Assembly: GCF_028748185.1 (NCBI RefSeq)
Contig: NZ_CP118164.1
Coordinates: forward strand, 3,038,001 to 3,102,000
Direction of reading: 5' to 3'
Source: Bremerella sp. P1
GTDB lineage: Bacteria; Planctomycetota; Planctomycetia; Pirellulales; Pirellulaceae
Length of the DNA: 64,000 nucleotides
Part shown: piece after piece, positions 699-10,485 of the stretch
Position numbering within the stretch: the first letter of the stretch is position 1
How the letters are laid out: every line of letters begins with the position of its first letter
Notes under the pieces: generated by a model
The model's database searches: none
What the model was told of the DNA's origin: nothing
The model's input: the letters and a program-made list of their open reading frames with translations, nothing else
Translations under genes and position numbers: made by a program

Positions 699-1463
699 AT
701 GATTCAACTTTCCACGAAGCCGTTTCCACTGCCGCGTCCGATGCGACAGTTGGAGATCGCTCAAACGGAACTGCACCTGTGGCGGATTTCGCTTGAGGAA
801 GGCCTGTCGGGCGTCGATCAATTGCACAAGCAGCTTTCTGAAGCCGAGCAGGTGCGGGCCTCGAAGTTCTTTCGCGAAAACCAAGCTCAGCAGTACGTCG
901 TGTTTCATGCGGCCCTGCGGGACATTCTGGCCCGATACTTGGATGTCGAACCATCCGAAATCACTTACGAGACTGGCGAATTTGGTAAACCGAACATCAT
1001 TCGCGGCCAGGCGGGTCAGCTGAGCTTCAATCTGACGCATTCGGGCGAACTGGCCGTCGTGGCGGTTTCGATGGGGATGGAAGTCGGCGTCGATATCGAG
1101 CGGATTCGCAAAGTTCGCAGCTTCGCTAGCATGCTTGAACGTTGTCTGTCGGACGCTGAGCGTAAGGACCTTTGTGCCTACCAGGAAACGGATCGATTCC
1201 ACCAGTTTCTGCGGTTCTGGACCCATAAAGAGGCCTACTTAAAGACCATCGGGGTCGGCCTGCGAGCTCCGCTGGATCGTGTGACGCTCGATCTTCAGGC
1301 GCCTGAGTCCCGTAAGGTCGTGAACCATTTCGATGTCTTTCCACAATCTCCGCAGGTTCGTCTGATGGAGCTGGCACCGTGTGAAGGGTTTGTCGGGGCT
1401 GTCGGTTCCACTCACGAAGACTCGCCAGAGATCAAAACGTTCGGTTGGGTCAGTGGTCGATAA
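699..1463 (+). CDS. 4'-phosphopantetheinyl transferase (Sfp/Gsp type)
   Basis: The enzyme moves the phosphopantetheine arm from coenzyme A to a serine of carrier proteins. It carries the two family signatures: GVDIE (in VGVDIERIRKV, Mg-binding acidic residues) and WTHKEAYLKTIG (the WxxKEAxxK motif). At 254 residues it is of Sfp-type rather than AcpS-type size. An in-frame ATG at 741 is an alternative start that would put the HLW segment nearer the N-terminus; neither start has a clear ribosome binding site. It is the first gene of the cluster, 49 bases before an acyl carrier protein and close to a large PKS, so those two are its probable substrates. Family assignment is firm; partner assignment is inferred from position. 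Confidence 0.9.
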   Translation: MIQLSTKPFPLPRPMRQLEIAQTELHLWRISLEEGLSGVDQLHKQLSEAEQVRASKFFRENQAQQYVVFHAALRDILARYLDVEPSEITYETGEFGKPNIIRGQAGQLSFNLTHSGELAVVAVSMGMEVGVDIERIRKVRSFASMLERCLSDAERKDLCAYQETDRFHQFLRFWTHKEAYLKTIGVGLRAPLDRVTLDLQAPESRKVVNHFDVFPQSPQVRLMELAPCEGFVGAVGSTHEDSPEIKTFGWVSGR

Positions 1464-1512
1464 GTCGGTTAATGGGTAAACTGGTGTGTTACCCTTAGCC
1501 ACGAGGTGCTCA

Positions 1513-1788
1513 ATGACAGCCGAGCCATCCGGACCTTCCGGCGATGCGCCTAAGTCCGCGGAAGAAATCCAAGACTGGATTATCGATTATCTTGCCAAAG
1601 AGTTGGACACGAACCCCAACTCTATTGATCCTAGCGCCACTTTCGATTCCTTCGCCCTCGATTCGGCCACGGCCATCGGGATGACCGGCGATATGGAAAA
1701 CTGGCTTGGGAAACGGATTGATCCCACGATCGTTTACGATTACCCCACGATCGAAGAGTTCTCTAGCTATCTGGCGGGCGAGAAGTAA
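1513..1788 (+). CDS. Free-standing acyl carrier protein
   Basis: A 91-residue carrier protein. The sequence around DSFALDSATAIGM holds the serine (in LDS) that would be phosphopantetheinylated, followed by the usual helix II and a YDYPTIEEFSSYLAG helix III signature. ATG 1513 is preferred to upstream in-frame starts because GAGGTG lies 4 bases before it (1503-1508). It sits between the transferase gene and the PKS, which already has its own C-terminal ACP domain. A second, separate carrier may load a starter acyl chain or feed the C-terminal PLP domain of the PKS. That role is inferred. A peptidyl carrier is possible but no adenylation domain is encoded nearby. Confidence 0.88.
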   Translation: MTAEPSGPSGDAPKSAEEIQDWIIDYLAKELDTNPNSIDPSATFDSFALDSATAIGMTGDMENWLGKRIDPTIVYDYPTIEEFSSYLAGEK

Positions 1789-1845
1789 GCCCTCGATCGC
1801 CCGAAGTGTGCCTGGTTTCATTCACCTGCGACGGAAGCCTTTTCG

Positions 1846-4800
1846 ATGCAGCCAAAACATGAACCGATTGCCGTTATCGGGATCGGTTGTCGTTTGCCCG
1901 GGGCCGATAGCCCGGAAGCTTTCTGGAACTTGCTGATCGAAGGTCGCGACGCCATTGGCGAAGTACCGCCCGACCGCTGGGACGTCGACCGACTCTACGA
2001 TCCTGAACCAGCGACCCCTGGCAAGATGTACACGCGCCGGGGTGGTTTCTTGAGCAACGTCGCCGACTTCGATCCGACCCTTTTCGGCATCAGCGGACGC
2101 GAAGCGGAAAAGATGGACCCCCAACAGCGGATACTGTTGGAAGTGACCTGGGAAGCATTCGAGAACGCCGGCATCCCCGTCAAAACGCTCGGTAACAGCG
2201 CGACCGGCATTTACGTCGGCATTAGCAACAGCGACTACGCCCGGCTTCTCTTTCGTGGGCTCGATTCGCTCAGCGCGTACAGTGCCACCGGAACCAGTCT
2301 GTCGATCGCTGCCAATCGATTGAGCTATCTGTTTAATTTCCGCGGGCCCAGCATCGCCGTCGATACGGCCTGTTCGTCTTCGCTCGTCTCGGCTCACCTT
2401 GCTTGTCAGGGCTTGCAGTCTGGCGAGACCGATCTGGCGGTTGCCGCCGGCGTGAACTTGATTCTGACGCCAGAAGGCACAATCACCTTCTGCCAGGCTC
2501 GCATGATGGCCCCTGATGGGCGCTGTAAGACCTTCGATGCCAGTGCCGATGGCTACGTGCGCGGCGAAGGTTGCGGTGCCGTCATCTTGAAGCGACTGAG
2601 CGATGCCGAACGCGATGGAGACCGCGTATTAGCTGTTATCCACGGCACGGCGGTCAATCAAGATGGTCTCACCAACGGACTGACCGCGCCCAACGGACCG
2701 TCGCAGCAAGAAGTGCTCAAGGCGGCCTTGGACGACGCTCAAGTTGAACCGCAAGCAATCGAACTGATTGAGGCCCACGGTACCGGTACTTCGCTCGGAG
2801 ATCCGATCGAAGTACGTAGCTTGAAAAACGTACTGGGCATGGGGCGAGACGCCCAGCACCCGCTTCGCCTGGGAAGCGTCAAAACCAATATCGGCCACCT
2901 GGAATCGGCCGCCGGGATCGCAGGCCTGTTGAAGCTTGTGCTTTCGCTCAGCAAGGGACAGATTCCTCCGCATTTGAACTTCGAAACACTCAATCCCTAT
3001 ATCGACCTGAGTGGTGCGGAAGTCGAAATTGTCACCGAAGCGAAGCAGTGGAATAGCGATGCCGGCAAACGCCTGGCCGGCGTGAGTGCATTCGGATTCG
3101 GTGGAACGAATTGTCACCTAATCGTTGGTGACTACGTTGCGAAAGAAACCGAAACCAAGTCGTCACCGCCGAAAGATCGCCCGCGGCATATCATTCCGCT
3201 TTCGACACAAACGCATGACGGCTTGCCGCTCTTGGCCGAGCGTTACCTGGAAGAGTTGGAAGACGAAGCGATTTCGCTGGCCGACTTTGCTCACAGCGTT
3301 GCCGTTGGTCGCTCGACGCTCGATGCCCGGACATTCGTTAATGCGGCCGATAAGAAGGAAGCGTTCGCAACGCTTCACAAGTTGGTCGAGAAGGGATCGA
3401 AAGATTCAACCAACGGCCAACCGGTGCGTCGCCGCAACAAAGTGGTGTTCTTGTTCACCGGTCAGGGTTCGCAGTATCCCGGTATGGGGCGCGAGCTGTA
3501 CGAGTCGCACCCCGTCTATCGCGAAGCCATCGACCAGTGCGCCGCAGAGCTCAAGAAGTACGACGTACCGCTGTTGGACGTGCTGTTCGCCGAGTCTGAG
3601 AGCGATACGATTCATCAAACGGCCATGTCGCAGCCGACGTTATTCGCGACGGAGTATGCACTTTTCCAACTGTGGAAGTCATGGGGCATTACGCCCAGCA
3701 TGGCAATCGGTCACAGTGTTGGTGAGTATGTCGCGGCCTGCGTTGCAGGCGTCTTTCCACTCGAAGATGCATTGAAGCTGATTGCGCTTCGTGGCAAGCT
3801 GATGCAAAGCTTGCCTGCCGGCGGAGCCATGTTGGCCGTTTCGGCCGGTGCCGATCGCATTGAAACACTCCTCAACGGACATGCCGGACAGGTCGGCATC
3901 GCCGCGGTGAATAGCCCGCAGCAGACGGTCCTTAGCGGGGCGGCGGAAGCGATCGATCAAGTTGCCGAGCTCTGCCAGACGGAAGGCATTCGTGCTACGC
4001 GATTGACGGTCTCCCATGCGTTCCATTCAAAGTTGATGGAGCCGATCCTCGACGAATTCGAACAGGCCGTTTCTTCGATCGAGATGAAGCCTGCTTCGTT
4101 CCCGATCGCTGCGAACTTGACGGGCGAGCTATCCAAAGACGCGTTCACCAAGCCTGCCTATTGGCGTCAGCATCTCCGCGAGGCGGTTCGCTTTGCCGAT
4201 GGTATCCAGGCCATTGCCGCGAAGGGTGGCAATGTCTTTGTCGAAGTGGGACCGCAGCCGGTTCTTTCCGGGCTTGGTCGCGTGAGCGTGCCTGGCAAGG
4301 AAAACGCCTGGCTTCCGAGTCTGCGTAACGGTCGCAGCGATTGGCAGATGATGCTCAACTCGCTGGGCGAACTATACGAGACAGGCATCACGATCGACTG
4401 GAAAGCGTTTGATGCTCCGTACGATCGTAAGCGAATCGAGCTGCCGACCTATCCGTTTGTGCGAAGTCGATTCTGGGCACCCGATACGATGCCCGTCACC
4501 AGTGGCGAAGACTTTGGCGGCGGTACGGGGCTTATGCCTACCCGCACAACGCATCCACTGCTGGGCGTGAAGATTCCGACGGCAACCGACGAAGTCCTTT
4601 TTCAAACGAACCTGGCACCTGGTTTCCCGGCATATCTGAACGATCACCAACTGTTCGGCAACCCGGTCTTTCCCGCGACTGGTTATGTCGAACTAGCTCT
4701 CGGTGCGGCGAGCGCCCACTTCGAGGAAGGACAGTATTCCGTCGAGCAGTTGCAAGTGCAGCAGCCGCTGGTGTTTGAAGAGCAGCACTCGAAGACGGTT

Positions 4801-7800
4801 CAGGTTGTGTTGACGCCGGAAGATCTGGGCTACGCTTCGTTCCGGATTCTCAGCGCCGAGACGTCTGATAGTGACGATACGATTTGGAAGCTGCATGCCG
4901 CGGGAAAGATCGTCCCGGCGGCGGCTCGTCCCGAGAAGGCTGACCTGCAAGAAGCCTTCTTCCGCATGGAAAAGCAGGTCGATGTCGAAGAGTTCTACGC
5001 CGGTGCCAAACAAAGCGGCCTGCAGTACGGCCACGCTTTCCAAGGGATCAAGCAGCTTGGCAATGGCGAAGACGAAGCCCTGGCCGAAGTGGCACTTCAA
5101 ACCGATCTTCAGAGCGATGCACGCAACTATCACTTGCATCCAGCCTTGCTCGACGCTTGTTTCCAGACGGTCGGAAGCTTGCTGGTCGATGAACTGACGC
5201 CTGGGACAACGTTCATTCCCATTGGCATTGGCAGCGTGACCTGCTTCGAGGGACACTCGCCGCAGCGGGTGGCTTGCTGGTCGAAGATCGTTAGCCGCAA
5301 ACCGGGACGCATGCCGCAGGTTGAAGCCGACATCTTGCTGGCCAATGAAGAAGGGGAAGTTCTGGCCGAAGTCCGCGGCTTGAAGCTGGCTCGTCTTGCA
5401 AAGATTGATCTGCAGAAACGATTGGTCGCCGATGTCGATCGCTGGTACCACGAGGTTAAATGGCTAGAAACACCGCGAATCGGCAATCCGCTGACCGTCG
5501 ATGAGAAGGAAGAATCGATTTGGCTCATCTTCGGCGATGGTCGACCGATGACGCAGTATCTCGTCGAACAACTCGAGCAGCGCAAGCAGCAAGTGATGCA
5601 GGTATTCCCCGGCACCGAATTGGAGTTCGGTGAAGTCGATGCCATGCTCGATCCAGCCGAACCTACCGAGTTCGTTGAACTGCTCGATTCGCTTCAGCTT
5701 TCCGACACTCGGAAGCTGCGAGGTGTGATCTATCTGTGGGCTCAGCAGGATCTGTCGGGCAAAGCCAACGAGTCGATGGTTGATCATGCTCTCGGCTGCC
5801 AAGGTCTGCTGCATGTCGCCCAAGCTTTGGGCCAGCGGGAAGATCAATCGCCTAGACTCTACGTGGTCACCCTCGGTGGTCAGCGAATTTACTCCGGTGA
5901 CAAGATTGGCCATCCCTTAGAGGCCGCCACTTGGGGCCTAGCTGGCGTGATTGCCAACGAACTACCGAAGCTCAACTGCACGCGTGTCGACGTCGATGCG
6001 GCCGATCGCGAGACGGCTGGTCGCTTGTTCGGCGAGATCTGGGTACCTGACTCGGAAACCGAAATCGCGTTGCGTGGCGAGAAACGATTCTCGTCACGAT
6101 TGATGCCGATGCGTCTGGCTGCTGATGGCGAGTTGACGGTTCCGGAACAGTCGTATCAGCTGGGCCTGAAGAAGTTCGGCATGCTGACGAATCTGGAGTT
6201 GGTCCCCAAACCGCGTACCGAACCGGCTGAGACCGAAGTCGAGATCGCGGTCAAAGCGTCGGGTCTCAACTTCCGCGATGTGCTGCGGGCCTTGGGGATG
6301 CTGCAGGAATATGAAAAAGAGATTGGCATTCTTACCGAAGCGGACGTGACCTTCGGCTTCGAGTGCAGCGGCGTCGTCACAGCGGTCGGTAGCAAGGTGA
6401 AGAACCTGAGTGTCGGCGACGAGGTAATCGCGCTTTCCACCGCCAGCATGACCAGCCACTTGCTGGTCGATCAAAACTATGTGGCCAAGAAGCCAAGTAA
6501 TCAGACGTTTGACGAAGCAGCGACCATTCCTCTGGCGTTCCTGACCGCCCACTACGGGCTCGTACGGCTGGCGAAGCTACGCAAAGGCGAACGGGTTCTC
6601 ATTCATGCCGCCGCCGGTGGTGTAGGCCAGGCAGCCGTGGCGATCGCCCAGGCCATCGGCGCCGAGATCTACGCTACGGCCAGCAAGGGCAAGTGGGACT
6701 TCCTGCATTCGCTGGGCATCAAGCATGTTTACGATTCGCGTACAACGCTCTTCAGCGATCAGATTCTGGAAGACACGGGTGGCGAAGGAGTCGACGTTGT
6801 CCTCAATAGCTTGAACCAGGAGTTCATTCCCAAGAGCGTCGAGTGTCTGGCCAAGGATGGGCGTTTTGTCGAGATCGGCAAGATTGGTATCTGGACGCCT
6901 GAGCAGTTTGCCGAAGCCAAGTCGGCCGCGACCTACTTCCCGTTTGATCTCGGGGACGAAGAACGAAAGGCACCAGGCCTGATCGCGACGATGCTTGAGG
7001 AACTGTTGCCGCAGTTCGAGTCGCACAAGCTAACTCCCCTGCCCTTGCAGGCCTATCGCATCGAAGACGCCGTCGAAGCGTTTCGCTTTATGCAGCAGGC
7101 CAAGCACCTGGGCAAGGTCGTGCTGCAAATGACGTCGCCTACCGGCGAACGACCATTGATTCGGGAAGATGCAACCTACCTGATCACCGGCGGTACCGGG
7201 GCGATTGGTCTAGAAGTCGCGCAGTGGTTGATCCAGCAGGGAGCCAAAAGCGTTGTCCTAACCAGCCGCAGTGGGAAAGCGAACGAGGCCGCTGCCGAGC
7301 GGATTGCGGCTTGGGAAAGCGAAGGCACTCAGGTCACCGTTTCAACCATGGATGCCGCCAAGGCCGATCAAGTCGCCGCCGTGCTGGGCTTCATCCAAAC
7401 CGAGCTTCCACCACTGGCAGGCGTGTTCCATGCTGCTGGTGTGCTGGACGATGCGACCATCCCACAGCAGTCGTGGGATCGCTTCGCCAAAGTGTTGCCA
7501 GCCAAGGTGGATGGTTCCTGGTATTTGCACCAGCAGACACGCGAATTGCCGCTCGATTACTTCGTCTGCTTCTCATCGATCGCCGCGATGATCGGATCGC
7601 CGGGACAAGCCAACTACGCTGCGGCCAACGCATTTATGGACGCCTTGTGTGCAGGTCGCCGCGCTGAAGGCCTGACTGGTCTGAGCATCAACTGGGGGCC
7701 ATGGAGCGGCGGTGGCATGGCCAAATCGGCCGACGCCCGACGGCTTGCAGGGATTGGCTTGGGCATGATTGCTCCGCAGCAAGGTTTGCTCGCGCTGGAA

Positions 7801-9549
7801 GAACTTCTGCCGACGCGCTACGCCGACGTGGGTGTCTTCCCGGTCGACTGGACGAAGTTCCTCAAGCAGTTTGGTCGTAACAAGCATCCACGGATCCTCG
7901 ACGAGCTCGCCAAGATTCATCGTCAGGAACGCACCGTCGGCGCGGCCGCCGGTGGGGCGCTTCGCGATCGCATGGCCGCCGCAGACGAAGTCAAGCGAGC
8001 CTCGATGATTGGCGACTACGTTGCTGATCAGGCTGCCAAGACACTCGGTATTGCGGCTTCGCAGTTAGATCGCGCCAAGCCGCTTGCTGAAATGGGGCTC
8101 GACTCCTTGATGGGGATCGAGCTGAAGAACGCGATTGAAGCCGAGCTTGAGATCGATATCCCCGTCGAAGAATTCTCGCAAGACACCACAGTCACAAGCC
8201 TGGCGACAGCGGTTGCCAATCTTGTGGGCGTGGAAGGAGACTTCACGTCGAGCGGTGGTGGTGAAGCTTCGGCTCCGGTAGCGAAGGAGAAGCCTGCCCG
8301 TGCTCTGGAAGACATTCCTGTTTCCGACTTCCAGACCGATCAGTTCCCCGAAGTGGTCGAGCTGCAAGAGCGTATCGCGCGGTTTGCTCGGATGGGAATG
8401 GAAAGCCCTTACTTCGATGTCCACGAAGGAACCACGCGCGACACGGCCATCATCGGCGGTCGCGAGTTCGTCTGCTTCAGCAGCTACAACTATGTCGGCA
8501 GCAGTGGCGACCCGGAAGTGACCGCCGCCGCTCAAGCCGCCATCGAGCAATTTGGCACCAGTGTTTCGGCCAGCCGTGTGGTCTCTGGCGAAAAGACGAT
8601 CCACGGCGAACTGGAACGCAAGATCGCCGAGTTCGTGGGGACCGAGTCTGCTGTTTGTTTTGTCGGTGGTCACTCGACCAACGAAACGACGATCGGCCAT
8701 CTGATGAATCCAGGCGACTTGATCCTGCACGACGAACTAGCCCACAACAGTTTGGTGCAAGGTTGTATTCTGTCTGGCGCCCAGCGACGAGCGTTTCCGC
8801 ATAACGATACGGCTGCCTGTGAACGCATGCTGGCCGAGATGCGGGGTAAATACCGCCGGGCTGTGATTGTCGTTGAAGGTGTCTACAGCATGGACGGCGA
8901 CTACTGCGACTTACCCAAGCTGGTTGAGATTAAAGAGAAATACAAGGCAATGCTCTTCGTCGACGAGGCACACTCGATCGGCACGATGGGCAAGACAGGT
9001 CGCGGGATCTGCGAACATTTCGGTATCCCGGGTTCGCGCATCGATTTCCTGATGGCAACGCTCAGTAAGTCGCTGGGTAGCTGCGGCGGCTACATTGCCG
9101 GTAAGAAGACGATGATCGAGTACCTCAAGTACACGGCACCAGGCTTTGTGTTCAGCGTGGGGATGCCCCCATCGAACGCAGCCGCGGCCCTGGCATCGTT
9201 CGAGCGGATTGAGAAGCACCCGGAAGTGGTCGCCAAGTGCATGAGCAATTCCCGGCTGTTTCTCAAGCTGGCCAAGGAAAAGGGACTCGATACGGGGCTC
9301 AGCGACAATACGCCGGTCGTTCCCGTGATCACCGGCAACTCGCTCTTAGCCCTGCGACTTTCGCGTGCCCTGTACGCGCGCGGGTACAACGTTCAGCCGA
9401 TCATGTATCCGGCCGTGGAAGAGAAAGCGGCCCGACTGCGGTTCTTCATCACTAGCTGCCACAGCGAAGAACAAATCCAGCAGACAGTTGACGCGACGGC
9501 TGAAGAGTTGGAAAAATTGAAAGCCGAATCGAACGACGCGGCGAAATAG
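1846..9549 (+). CDS. Fully reducing type I polyketide synthase fused to a C-terminal alpha-oxoamine synthase
   Basis: A 2567-residue megasynthase. Domains in order: ketosynthase ~1-430 (DTACSSS with Cys176, His311 in EAHGTGT, His351 in NIGHLE); acyltransferase ~530-850 (Ser624 in GHSVGEY; HAFH at 724-727 points to malonyl-CoA); dehydratase ~870-1200 (HxxxGxxxxP with His934; Asp1103); a non-catalytic KR-like linker ~1205-1420; enoylreductase ~1430-1760 (AAAGGVGQ near 1588); ketoreductase ~1770-2010 (GGTGAIG; LDD motif; Ser1911, Tyr1924); ACP with Ser2087 in GLDSL; then a ~370-residue PLP-dependent domain (2190-2560) of the BioF/KBL/SPT family with DEAHS at 2373-2377 and the Schiff-base Lys2408 in LSKSLG. 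There is no thioesterase. By analogy with the OAS domains of RedL, RedN and PigH, the last domain should release the chain by decarboxylative condensation with an amino acid, giving an alpha-aminoketone. Product and amino acid are unknown. Confidence 0.93.
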   Translation: MQPKHEPIAVIGIGCRLPGADSPEAFWNLLIEGRDAIGEVPPDRWDVDRLYDPEPATPGKMYTRRGGFLSNVADFDPTLFGISGREAEKMDPQQRILLEVTWEAFENAGIPVKTLGNSATGIYVGISNSDYARLLFRGLDSLSAYSATGTSLSIAANRLSYLFNFRGPSIAVDTACSSSLVSAHLACQGLQSGETDLAVAAGVNLILTPEGTITFCQARMMAPDGRCKTFDASADGYVRGEGCGAVILKRLSDAERDGDRVLAVIHGTAVNQDGLTNGLTAPNGPSQQEVLKAALDDAQVEPQAIELIEAHGTGTSLGDPIEVRSLKNVLGMGRDAQHPLRLGSVKTNIGHLESAAGIAGLLKLVLSLSKGQIPPHLNFETLNPYIDLSGAEVEIVTEAKQWNSDAGKRLAGVSAFGFGGTNCHLIVGDYVAKETETKSSPPKDRPRHIIPLSTQTHDGLPLLAERYLEELEDEAISLADFAHSVAVGRSTLDARTFVNAADKKEAFATLHKLVEKGSKDSTNGQPVRRRNKVVFLFTGQGSQYPGMGRELYESHPVYREAIDQCAAELKKYDVPLLDVLFAESESDTIHQTAMSQPTLFATEYALFQLWKSWGITPSMAIGHSVGEYVAACVAGVFPLEDALKLIALRGKLMQSLPAGGAMLAVSAGADRIETLLNGHAGQVGIAAVNSPQQTVLSGAAEAIDQVAELCQTEGIRATRLTVSHAFHSKLMEPILDEFEQAVSSIEMKPASFPIAANLTGELSKDAFTKPAYWRQHLREAVRFADGIQAIAAKGGNVFVEVGPQPVLSGLGRVSVPGKENAWLPSLRNGRSDWQMMLNSLGELYETGITIDWKAFDAPYDRKRIELPTYPFVRSRFWAPDTMPVTSGEDFGGGTGLMPTRTTHPLLGVKIPTATDEVLFQTNLAPGFPAYLNDHQLFGNPVFPATGYVELALGAASAHFEEGQYSVEQLQVQQPLVFEEQHSKTVQVVLTPEDLGYASFRILSAETSDSDDTIWKLHAAGKIVPAAARPEKADLQEAFFRMEKQVDVEEFYAGAKQSGLQYGHAFQGIKQLGNGEDEALAEVALQTDLQSDARNYHLHPALLDACFQTVGSLLVDELTPGTTFIPIGIGSVTCFEGHSPQRVACWSKIVSRKPGRMPQVEADILLANEEGEVLAEVRGLKLARLAKIDLQKRLVADVDRWYHEVKWLETPRIGNPLTVDEKEESIWLIFGDGRPMTQYLVEQLEQRKQQVMQVFPGTELEFGEVDAMLDPAEPTEFVELLDSLQLSDTRKLRGVIYLWAQQDLSGKANESMVDHALGCQGLLHVAQALGQREDQSPRLYVVTLGGQRIYSGDKIGHPLEAATWGLAGVIANELPKLNCTRVDVDAADRETAGRLFGEIWVPDSETEIALRGEKRFSSRLMPMRLAADGELTVPEQSYQLGLKKFGMLTNLELVPKPRTEPAETEVEIAVKASGLNFRDVLRALGMLQEYEKEIGILTEADVTFGFECSGVVTAVGSKVKNLSVGDEVIALSTASMTSHLLVDQNYVAKKPSNQTFDEAATIPLAFLTAHYGLVRLAKLRKGERVLIHAAAGGVGQAAVAIAQAIGAEIYATASKGKWDFLHSLGIKHVYDSRTTLFSDQILEDTGGEGVDVVLNSLNQEFIPKSVECLAKDGRFVEIGKIGIWTPEQFAEAKSAATYFPFDLGDEERKAPGLIATMLEELLPQFESHKLTPLPLQAYRIEDAVEAFRFMQQAKHLGKVVLQMTSPTGERPLIREDATYLITGGTGAIGLEVAQWLIQQGAKSVVLTSRSGKANEAAAERIAAWESEGTQVTVSTMDAAKADQVAAVLGFIQTELPPLAGVFHAAGVLDDATIPQQSWDRFAKVLPAKVDGSWYLHQQTRELPLDYFVCFSSIAAMIGSPGQANYAAANAFMDALCAGRRAEGLTGLSINWGPWSGGGMAKSADARRLAGIGLGMIAPQQGLLALEELLPTRYADVGVFPVDWTKFLKQFGRNKHPRILDELAKIHRQERTVGAAAGGALRDRMAAADEVKRASMIGDYVADQAAKTLGIAASQLDRAKPLAEMGLDSLMGIELKNAIEAELEIDIPVEEFSQDTTVTSLATAVANLVGVEGDFTSSGGGEASAPVAKEKPARALEDIPVSDFQTDQFPEVVELQERIARFARMGMESPYFDVHEGTTRDTAIIGGREFVCFSSYNYVGSSGDPEVTAAAQAAIEQFGTSVSASRVVSGEKTIHGELERKIAEFVGTESAVCFVGGHSTNETTIGHLMNPGDLILHDELAHNSLVQGCILSGAQRRAFPHNDTAACERMLAEMRGKYRRAVIVVEGVYSMDGDYCDLPKLVEIKEKYKAMLFVDEAHSIGTMGKTGRGICEHFGIPGSRIDFLMATLSKSLGSCGGYIAGKKTMIEYLKYTAPGFVFSVGMPPSNAAAALASFERIEKHPEVVAKCMSNSRLFLKLAKEKGLDTGLSDNTPVVPVITGNSLLALRLSRALYARGYNVQPIMYPAVEEKAARLRFFITSCHSEEQIQQTVDATAEELEKLKAESNDAAK

Positions 9550-9591
9550 GTGACCCGCGCGATTCGCTTGTCACACAAGAGGGGAAATCAC

Positions 9592-10485
9592 GTGTCGAAA
9601 GCTGTCTGTACACAAGCATTGGCACTGCTCACTAAGCGAGTATTTTCCCTTGAGGAGATCCAGCAGCAGCTGGAAGCTGGCAAGTTTCCCTGCACGATTG
9701 AAGATGCGGATGGCGAAAACGTAGGCCGCACGCTTCAGGGGCAATTGCCTAATGGCGGCCCGAGTGTTGTGATCGAGATAGTTAATTCTGTGTGGCCGGC
9801 CAAGATCGAAGCCGACCAAGACTTGGGTCCCTTCAGCCACGGGCAGTCGCTAGAGCGAGCTTGCAAGTTCAATGTGAACTGGACGAAAGCGGCGGAAGTT
9901 GCTGCGCAGCACCAAGGAATCGTGCTTGTACGGATGCTGCCCGATTCCTCGGAGCCTGTGTCGGCAACCGAAGTGCTTACGCAATTGATGGCATTGGCCA
10001 AGGTAAGCTTGGCGATTGGGTCGCTGCCTGACGTGGCAGGCTATTTCTGTCCCGGCGGCGAGATCTTCGTCCCGATCGAAGTGCTTGATGAAATTCTTCA
10101 GGCCAGCAAGGTCGCTGGGTTTCCGCCGCTCGATCTGTTTGCCAACTTGCGACTATCGTGGCTGGACGATCGTTGGATCATCTTTGAAACGATTGGCAAC
10201 GCGCAGCTGGGTTTGCGTGACTTCGAGGTCTACGCCGACAGCAAGCAGCACGACTTGAACGACATTGCCGCATGGCTGAGACGTTGGAGTTGGCAGCATT
10301 TACAAGCCGAGAACGCATTAGAAAACGGATCGGTCGCCAGTGGTCCAGGTGAAGCGAAATTCGATGTCGTCTATGCCGACGATGCGCTCTTGGCACCTAA
10401 GCGGCCGGTGATTCGTTTGATTGCCCAAGACGAAGCGAAGATGCCTGAGGGCTTGCCGGCTCGGCTACGGATCGATCGAACATAG
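9592..10485 (+). CDS. Conserved protein of unknown function, possibly DUF4261-containing
   Basis: A soluble 297-residue protein with no signal peptide or membrane segment. I chose GTG 9592 because a good ribosome binding site (GAGGGG) lies about 8 bases before it; an in-frame GTG at 9550 directly follows the PKS stop and is less likely. The C-terminal half, with an IIFETIGNAQLGLRDFEVYAD segment, resembles DUF4261 proteins in my judgement, but I could not test this. It follows the PKS by about 40 bases on the same strand and is probably cotranscribed. No catalytic motif is recognised. A link to polyketide synthesis is suggested only by position. Confidence 0.6.
   Translation: MSKAVCTQALALLTKRVFSLEEIQQQLEAGKFPCTIEDADGENVGRTLQGQLPNGGPSVVIEIVNSVWPAKIEADQDLGPFSHGQSLERACKFNVNWTKAAEVAAQHQGIVLVRMLPDSSEPVSATEVLTQLMALAKVSLAIGSLPDVAGYFCPGGEIFVPIEVLDEILQASKVAGFPPLDLFANLRLSWLDDRWIIFETIGNAQLGLRDFEVYADSKQHDLNDIAAWLRRWSWQHLQAENALENGSVASGPGEAKFDVVYADDALLAPKRPVIRLIAQDEAKMPEGLPARLRIDRT

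Follow-up and report, generated by a model that had tools for sequence, protein, structure and literature searches.

Among the described systems closest to the locus studied here, SgaAB of Pseudomonas fluorescens MYb115 has been reported to yield C24-C28 sphinganines and to have 6,101 homologous clusters (PMC12134224, 2025), and SgaB is described there as condensing serine with acyl-CoAs to 3-ketosphinganines with a strong preference for L-Ser. There, an iterative PKS and an alpha-oxoamine synthase (AOS) of the serine palmitoyltransferase (SPT) fold release a PKS-built chain onto an amino acid. The capsule-lipid genes RkpA/RkpG/RkpH and WcbR (L066, PMC3908369) likewise pair a PKS with an AOS and an SDR. 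In Rhodobacteria, a dedicated acyl-ACP is described as feeding SPT (AasR-AcpR-SPT, PMC9386255), with YghO alongside, and the gene order of E. coli BL21 is FAAL, epimerase, ACP and spt, with yghO alongside. Cyanobacterial FAAL-ACP-PKS starter cassettes, with cylindrocyclophane-type loading (PMC11837247), are also close. As for planctomycetes, PMC3870968 lists an "A-CP-PLP2" protein from Blastopirellula marina, and 138 Planctomycetota MAGs with Spt-like proteins are mentioned in a Black Sea metagenome study (PMC11334938); no product study on sphingoid lipids of Pirellulaceae was found in the literature searched, which was surveyed in part.

We analyzed a 64,000-nucleotide stretch (the window) of the genome of Bremerella sp. 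P1 (6.96 Mb, a single contig). The evidence leans towards a locus whose product would be a lipid of the sphingoid-base type, namely a 2-amino-3-ketone with a long saturated chain, made by the route and with the ancestry proposed below. Four open reading frames were confirmed on the forward strand, at 699-1463, 1486-1788, 1846-9549 and 9550-10485, with intergenic gaps of 22, 57 and 0 bases. The first (699..1463) encodes an Sfp-type phosphopantetheinyl transferase (PPTase; PF01648, 9e-17) that is HetI-like and lies under the NCBIfam cut-off. The second encodes a small stand-alone ACP (PF00550, 2e-13), placed at 1513..1788: in the congeneric locus L041 a stop codon in the same frame separates the two possible starts, so that the ATG at 1513 rather than position 1486 is probably the start. 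The third (1846..9549) encodes a KS-AT-DH-ER-KR-ACP-AOS protein of 2,567 aa, as seen from the reading frame and Pfam. The fourth (9550..10485), whose start may be the GTG at 9592, is accessory at most, and its sole Pfam match is DUF4261 (PF14080), below cut-off. A QueC gene (recognized by Pfam in the orthologue at L036) lies 5' of the operon and metallophosphatase and Tex genes lie 3' of it, and therefore no larger cluster was seen. A foreign base composition was considered and rejected, the G+C content being 0.577 for the operon vs 0.567 for the window.

The domains of the large protein, all on the forward strand, are KS (1861..3126; PF00109/PF02801, with DTACSSS, HGTGT and NIGH intact), AT (3445..4386; PF00698), DH (4552..5403; PF21089/PF14765, motifs present), ER (6172..7131; PF08240/PF00107/PF13602, HAAAGGVG), KR (7171..7707; PF08659, motifs present), an internal ACP (8017..8214; PF00550, GLDSL) and the AOS (8362..9525; PF00155, 2e-46), which is further supported by catalytic residues, tree and predicted structure and whose Aminotran_1_2 match covers residues 2209-2549. 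The AT motifs GHSVGE and HAFH are, we presume, of the malonyl type. By Pfam the protein joins a single fully reducing PKS module to an AOS, the domain content of SgaAB. The window retains intact catalytic motifs in KS, AT, DH, ER, KR, ACP and AOS, and 12 aligned planctomycete homologues keep them with one exception in the DH, where the Gly of HxxxGxxxxP is replaced by Asp in three of the 12 (L043, L087 and L091). None of the 21 Pfam matches of the large protein belongs to a thioesterase family. An earlier note on this DNA thus placed the PPTase, the small ACP and the PKS-AOS gene correctly, as judged by reading frames and Pfam, and was right that the catalytic residues it could locate are intact, as the motif alignment showed, and that a thioesterase is lacking.

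The same note had described four linked genes and suggested a genome search for their order; linkage holds for the first three, since the PPTase, ACP and PKS-AOS genes form a group in 9/9 genomes of the genus, but not for the fourth. The DUF4261-like gene lies directly 3' of the PKS-AOS gene in 6/9 genus genomes, no copy being detected at L039, L041 or L042, and as it is missing from three of nine congeners we rejected it as a core member; a relative with 27% identity lies directly downstream in L087. PPTase and ACP genes also precede the PKS-AOS gene at the Blastopirellula-type loci L087, L088, L183 and L184, where the PPTase is 43-47% identical to that of the window, and at L043, L091 and L190 the small ACP is present and the PPTase absent. 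At L188 and L189, loci of a second type of PKS-AOS, neither small ACP nor PPTase lies upstream, and we count the lack of the small ACP against our main reading. This second type was seen in genus g10 (L188, L189 and L191), and two genomes (G017 and G338) carry both types.

Judged by its residues, the AOS is a catalytically complete alpha-oxoamine synthase: the PLP fold type I and the Lys, Asp, two His and Arg found by alignment to SPT, Kbl, BioF and ALAS references are all present, the catalytic residues of the 412-aa domain being H145, D218, H221, S252, K253 and R377. In a fold search, the AlphaFold2 model (pLDDT 91.7) is closest by E-value to ThAOS and SPT; Kbl structures are about as similar, which counts against our main reading. 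We built a tree of 72 AOS rows (the window, 24 chosen locus stretches, 43 of 80 GTDB loci and 4 typed references), in which, as in the KS tree and the further AOS tree below, stops within tblastn hits were replaced by X. The window AOS falls within a clade of 66 carrier-linked AOSs (100/100), all fused to carrier proteins or encoded beside PKS, FAAL or ACP genes and including those beside Sga/Rkp-type PKSs; the two SPTs, Kbl, BioF, ALAS and ThAOS fall outside it (100/100). The window AOS lies outside the SPT clade proper (3a2b, 2w8t and the E. coli BL21 SPT), and on adding the BL21 SPT the SPTs became the neighbour clade of the carrier-linked AOSs (90/88), a placement that long reference branches make unsure. 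A further tree with added PKS-AOS loci omitted E. coli Kbl and BioF, ALAS and 2w8t, owing to their long branches, as well as L185-L187, which lie on the same contigs as L088, L087 and L091. The grouping with non-condensing aminotransferases that the earlier note had named as evidence against its idea was not seen, and the phylogeny it had proposed set the PLP domain apart from BioF, Kbl and SPT, in a carrier-linked clade of its own and not in the SPT clade proper.

This position bears on the choice of amino acid. The same machinery could use glycine or alanine, giving 1-deoxy-type aminoketones, or cysteate, giving a sulfonolipid-type base, and make no true sphingoid base, an alternative that we regard as rather unlikely. 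It draws on the distinctness of the AOS clade from SPT and on the profiles: the window AOS matches BioF, Kbl and SPT profiles, each below its cut-off, with the BioF and Kbl profiles scoring as well as or above those of SPT, and the cysteate acyl-ACP transferase profile also matches, more weakly. That the domain lies under the cut-off of three SPT models and its clade is another than that of SPT also counts against our main reading. However, the PLP lysine is preceded by Ser in the window AOS, both SPTs and ThAOS, not by Gly as in Kbl and BioF or by Ala as in ALAS; SgaB, which belongs to the same broad clade as judged by gene order, is described as using almost exclusively L-Ser (PMC12134224); and a YghO homologue is present in the genome. 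A docking-based proposal has the hydroxyl of serine held by Ser242 of 3A2B, and the same paper (PMC3870968) calls this pre-lysine Ser conserved throughout its whole AOS set, which is why we do not take it as proof of serine use.

Returning to the sphingoid-base reading, the genome was searched for its further enzymes. Other than the window, the ACP-AOS query matched a FAAL-ACP-AOS paralogue and two genes scoring as BioF and Kbl, and no classical SPT was seen among these matches. YghO, a presumptive sphingolipid N-acyltransferase, has a single homologue in this genome (36%, 2e-69), a GNAT gene on the reverse strand at L209:8422-9570 (G000:C1:2746422-2747570); no sphingolipid genes were recognized next to it. 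YghO homologues occur in 118/119 family genomes, and among three further loci inspected for AOS-YghO linkage the genes are adjacent in one (L210, genome G009) and not in the other two. Across the phylum, YghO is found in 93/246 genomes, yet just four of the 12 genomes with the AOS have it, so that it does not track with AOS as it does in the family. Searches of the genome with SgaC and the BL21 epimerase identified no keto-reductase: the best SgaC match is generic (31%), with no SgaC-like reductase adjoining the operon, and the best epimerase match (29%) is generic as well. We weigh the phylum-wide YghO pattern and both of these search results against our main reading; the YghO homologue itself, its presence across the family and the BioF and Kbl scores of the two other matches speak for it.

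Carrier-linked AOSs are widespread in the family, a match to the window ACP-AOS being found in 106/119 genomes (E <= 1e-120, best 12 candidates per genome), and rarer in the phylum at large (12/246 genomes; E <= 1e-95, best 5 candidates per genome). The PKS form, recognized by domain mapping, was found in 12/119 family genomes and 5/68 genera, including 3/3 genomes of genus g33 and 3/3 of g10, whereas most other frames with a family match are about 1,100-1,300 aa long and those examined are FAAL-ACP-AOS proteins. Eight of the 12 PKS-form genomes also carry a FAAL-sized second copy; in the other four (G017, G338, G368 and G327) the PKS form is the only AOS form passing the cut-off, as if it stood in for FAAL-ACP-AOS. 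At 80 loci of GTDB genomes, the AOS was preceded by a full PKS, by a FAAL, by KS-AT (KR present or absent) or by no partner, these architectures being drawn from blastp with the window domains, which may miss diverged domains. KS-AT-AOS proteins are found in Actinobacteria and Ectobacillus (L064, L125, L126, L135, L140, L144, L146, L151, L156, L161 and L165), in which blastp with the window domains detected no reducing domains (L064 is KS-AT-ACP-AOS by Pfam) and whose product is likely different and less reduced.

This distribution also bears on a second alternative, which we consider improbable, namely that the product is a specialized metabolite, a signal or antibiotic-like aminoketone that is exported or cyclized and has no ceramide-like lipid role. 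The restriction of the PKS form to 12 of the 119 family genomes, the kinship of the KS with cyanobacterial NRPS/PKS modules and the lack of any reductase or acyltransferase beside the PKS-AOS gene in the neighbourhoods examined would fit such a product. Nevertheless, the locus is present in 9/9 genomes of the genus and in 3/3 each of g33 and g10, nearly all family genomes carry some member of the AOS family, and no transporter, tailoring or resistance genes were seen among the Pfam-annotated neighbours of the operon.

We then compared the locus with its possible relatives. The ACP directly precedes the AOS in the window as it does in the FAAL-ACP-AOS proteins of Pirellulaceae and others, whose AOSs share one clade with it; for most of the planctomycete copies compared, AOS identity is 58-64%. 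Unlike the window protein, these obtain the acyl group from a fatty acyl-AMP ligase domain and not from a PKS. The rhodobacterial system shares the dedicated acyl-ACP supply, but consists, as described in PMC9386255, of separate proteins with FAAL supply, and its AOS belongs, in our tree with the BL21 SPT, to the SPT clade proper. The Sga proteins, according to PMC12134224, are separate and have the SDR SgaC in the cluster, whereas here PKS and AOS form one protein, and the Rkp/WcbR proteins are described in PMC3908369 as products of separate genes in capsule loci; in our 72-row tree their AOS lies in the proteobacterial clade. A Pseudomonas plasmid locus (L063) with PKS, AOS, SDR and LTA-synthase-like genes, taken as equivalent to SgaABC by gene order, encodes an AOS to which that of the window is 52% identical, and neither a small ACP nor a PPTase was seen beside it.

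The KS points elsewhere. In a tree of tblastn hits of at least 330 aa, seven planctomycete KSs join three cyanobacterial ones (L176, L177 and L179; 97/97) encoded next to FAAL and ACP genes, while the KSs of L178 and of Ectobacillus L125, also adjacent to FAAL, are unplaced. KS identities to the starter cassettes of Gloeothece (L179) and Planktothrix (L176) are 59-64%, and the small ACP is 58% identical over 74 aa to that of L179 and 38-46% to those of L176-L178. The Gloeothece cassette comprises FAAL, ACP and a module with the window's own order, KS-AT-DH-ER-KR-ACP; in contrast to the window, FAAL lies alongside and no AOS occurs at the cyanobacterial cassette loci. As both small ACP and KS resemble those of FAAL/ACP-primed cassettes, the small ACP is probably a starter-loading one. 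A FAAL gene next door was sought and rejected, as none lies near the operon or its relatives (L035-L043, L086-L088, L091 and L183-L190). In the genome, PF23024 detects a single FAAL, within the FAAL-ACP-AOS paralogue, although a FAAL lacking that domain would escape such a search; this too speaks against our main reading.

Regarding the origin of the fusion, the AOSs of planctomycete PKS-AOS proteins form one clade of 10 rows in the 72-row tree (97/96). Planktothrix agardhii L062 has the window's domain order in one protein, and Chroococcus L163 has it across the locus although its open frame covers KR-ACP-AOS only; their AOSs sit with cyanobacterial AOSs, apart from the planctomycete clade, and their KSs group with those of proteobacterial loci that pair a PKS with an AOS (94/87, not starred). 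A single clade of all 12 PKS-AOS AOSs was rejected (p-AU 8.9e-5), and with this topology test one origin for all PKS-AOS proteins is rejected. The trees indicate that the planctomycete fusion would have arisen apart from the cyanobacterial one. Direct joining of an SgaA-type PKS to its SgaB-type AOS, the two being inherited together, matches the identical domain content and the 52% AOS identity noted above, but we rejected it as highly improbable because the AOS and KS trees disagree with it, both window domains lying outside the clades of the SgaAB-type proteobacterial relatives (by which MYb115 was represented), and because the Planktothrix and Chroococcus proteins would fit such a fusion better.

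Our preferred reading, the sphingoid-base route, may be drawn as follows. The PPTase would arm both ACPs; the small ACP would load the KS with an acyl starter; malonyl-derived C2 units would then be added by the PKS, once or repeatedly, with full reduction; and the AOS would join the acyl-ACP to an amino acid in a decarboxylative condensation, L-serine being the likeliest substrate, to give a 3-keto-sphinganine-like base. Enzymes encoded elsewhere may N-acylate this base (the YghO homologue) and reduce it. The predicted release of the saturated acyl-ACP by an SPT-like domain is well supported by homology, while which amino acid is used, how long the chain is and where the starter comes from are inferences. 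In evolutionary terms, an ACP-AOS pair that is usually FAAL-fed in the family would have come under supply by a PKS module akin to FAAL/ACP-primed cyanobacterial modules and apart from both cyanobacterial PKS-AOS and proteobacterial SgaAB/Rkp. A more far-reaching version is possible though short of probable: this lineage might have swapped the fatty-acid-activating half of its near-universal FAAL-ACP-AOS for a whole PKS, so that one protein would turn malonyl-CoA and serine into a sphingoid base as the entry enzyme of a core pathway to membrane ceramides, with cyanobacteria reaching the same domain order separately.

The saturated PKS-made aminoketone proposed in the earlier note appears right in kind, given the reducing module, the ACP-AOS pair and the catalytic residues, while its novelty was overstated, as the idea is already realized elsewhere in SgaAB, reported to make sphinganines (PMC12134224). 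Its statement that no characterized pathway has this gene set stands insofar as no description of the exact set was found in the partly surveyed literature, and falls short in that the comparable SgaAB had been characterized. What is new is the ancestry of the fusion and the family-wide distribution of carrier-linked AOSs. If our reading is correct, Pirellulaceae would become a testable group of sphingoid-lipid makers, the ACP-AOS pair would be shown to be a portable release module joined to FAAL, full PKS or KS-AT, and the window protein would be a candidate for producing sphingoid bases that are long or unusual with a single polypeptide.

Some further observations concern the relatives of the locus. 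The fused PKS-AOS gene of Planktothrix agardhii plasmid p3 (L062:7608-15206) is flanked by glycosyltransferase-39, FAAL and hydrolase genes. Near FAAL-ACP-AOS genes, the recurring neighbours look porin-like, TraB-like, TIM-barrel and PQQ-type, with no clear link. The FAAL-ACP-AOS protein of G009 (L053:8166-11645) has an AOS without the catalytic Lys and the stacking His, and that genome also has a separate AOS gene beside a YghO homologue (L210). In the own-genome paralogue (L034:4931-8341; G000:C1, about 397,930-401,340), the PLP-binding Asp is replaced by Asn, as it is in 4/4 genus copies inspected (L034, L082, L083 and L196); the Blastopirellula-type FAAL-ACP-AOS copies retain this Asp in 4/4 cases (L192-L195).
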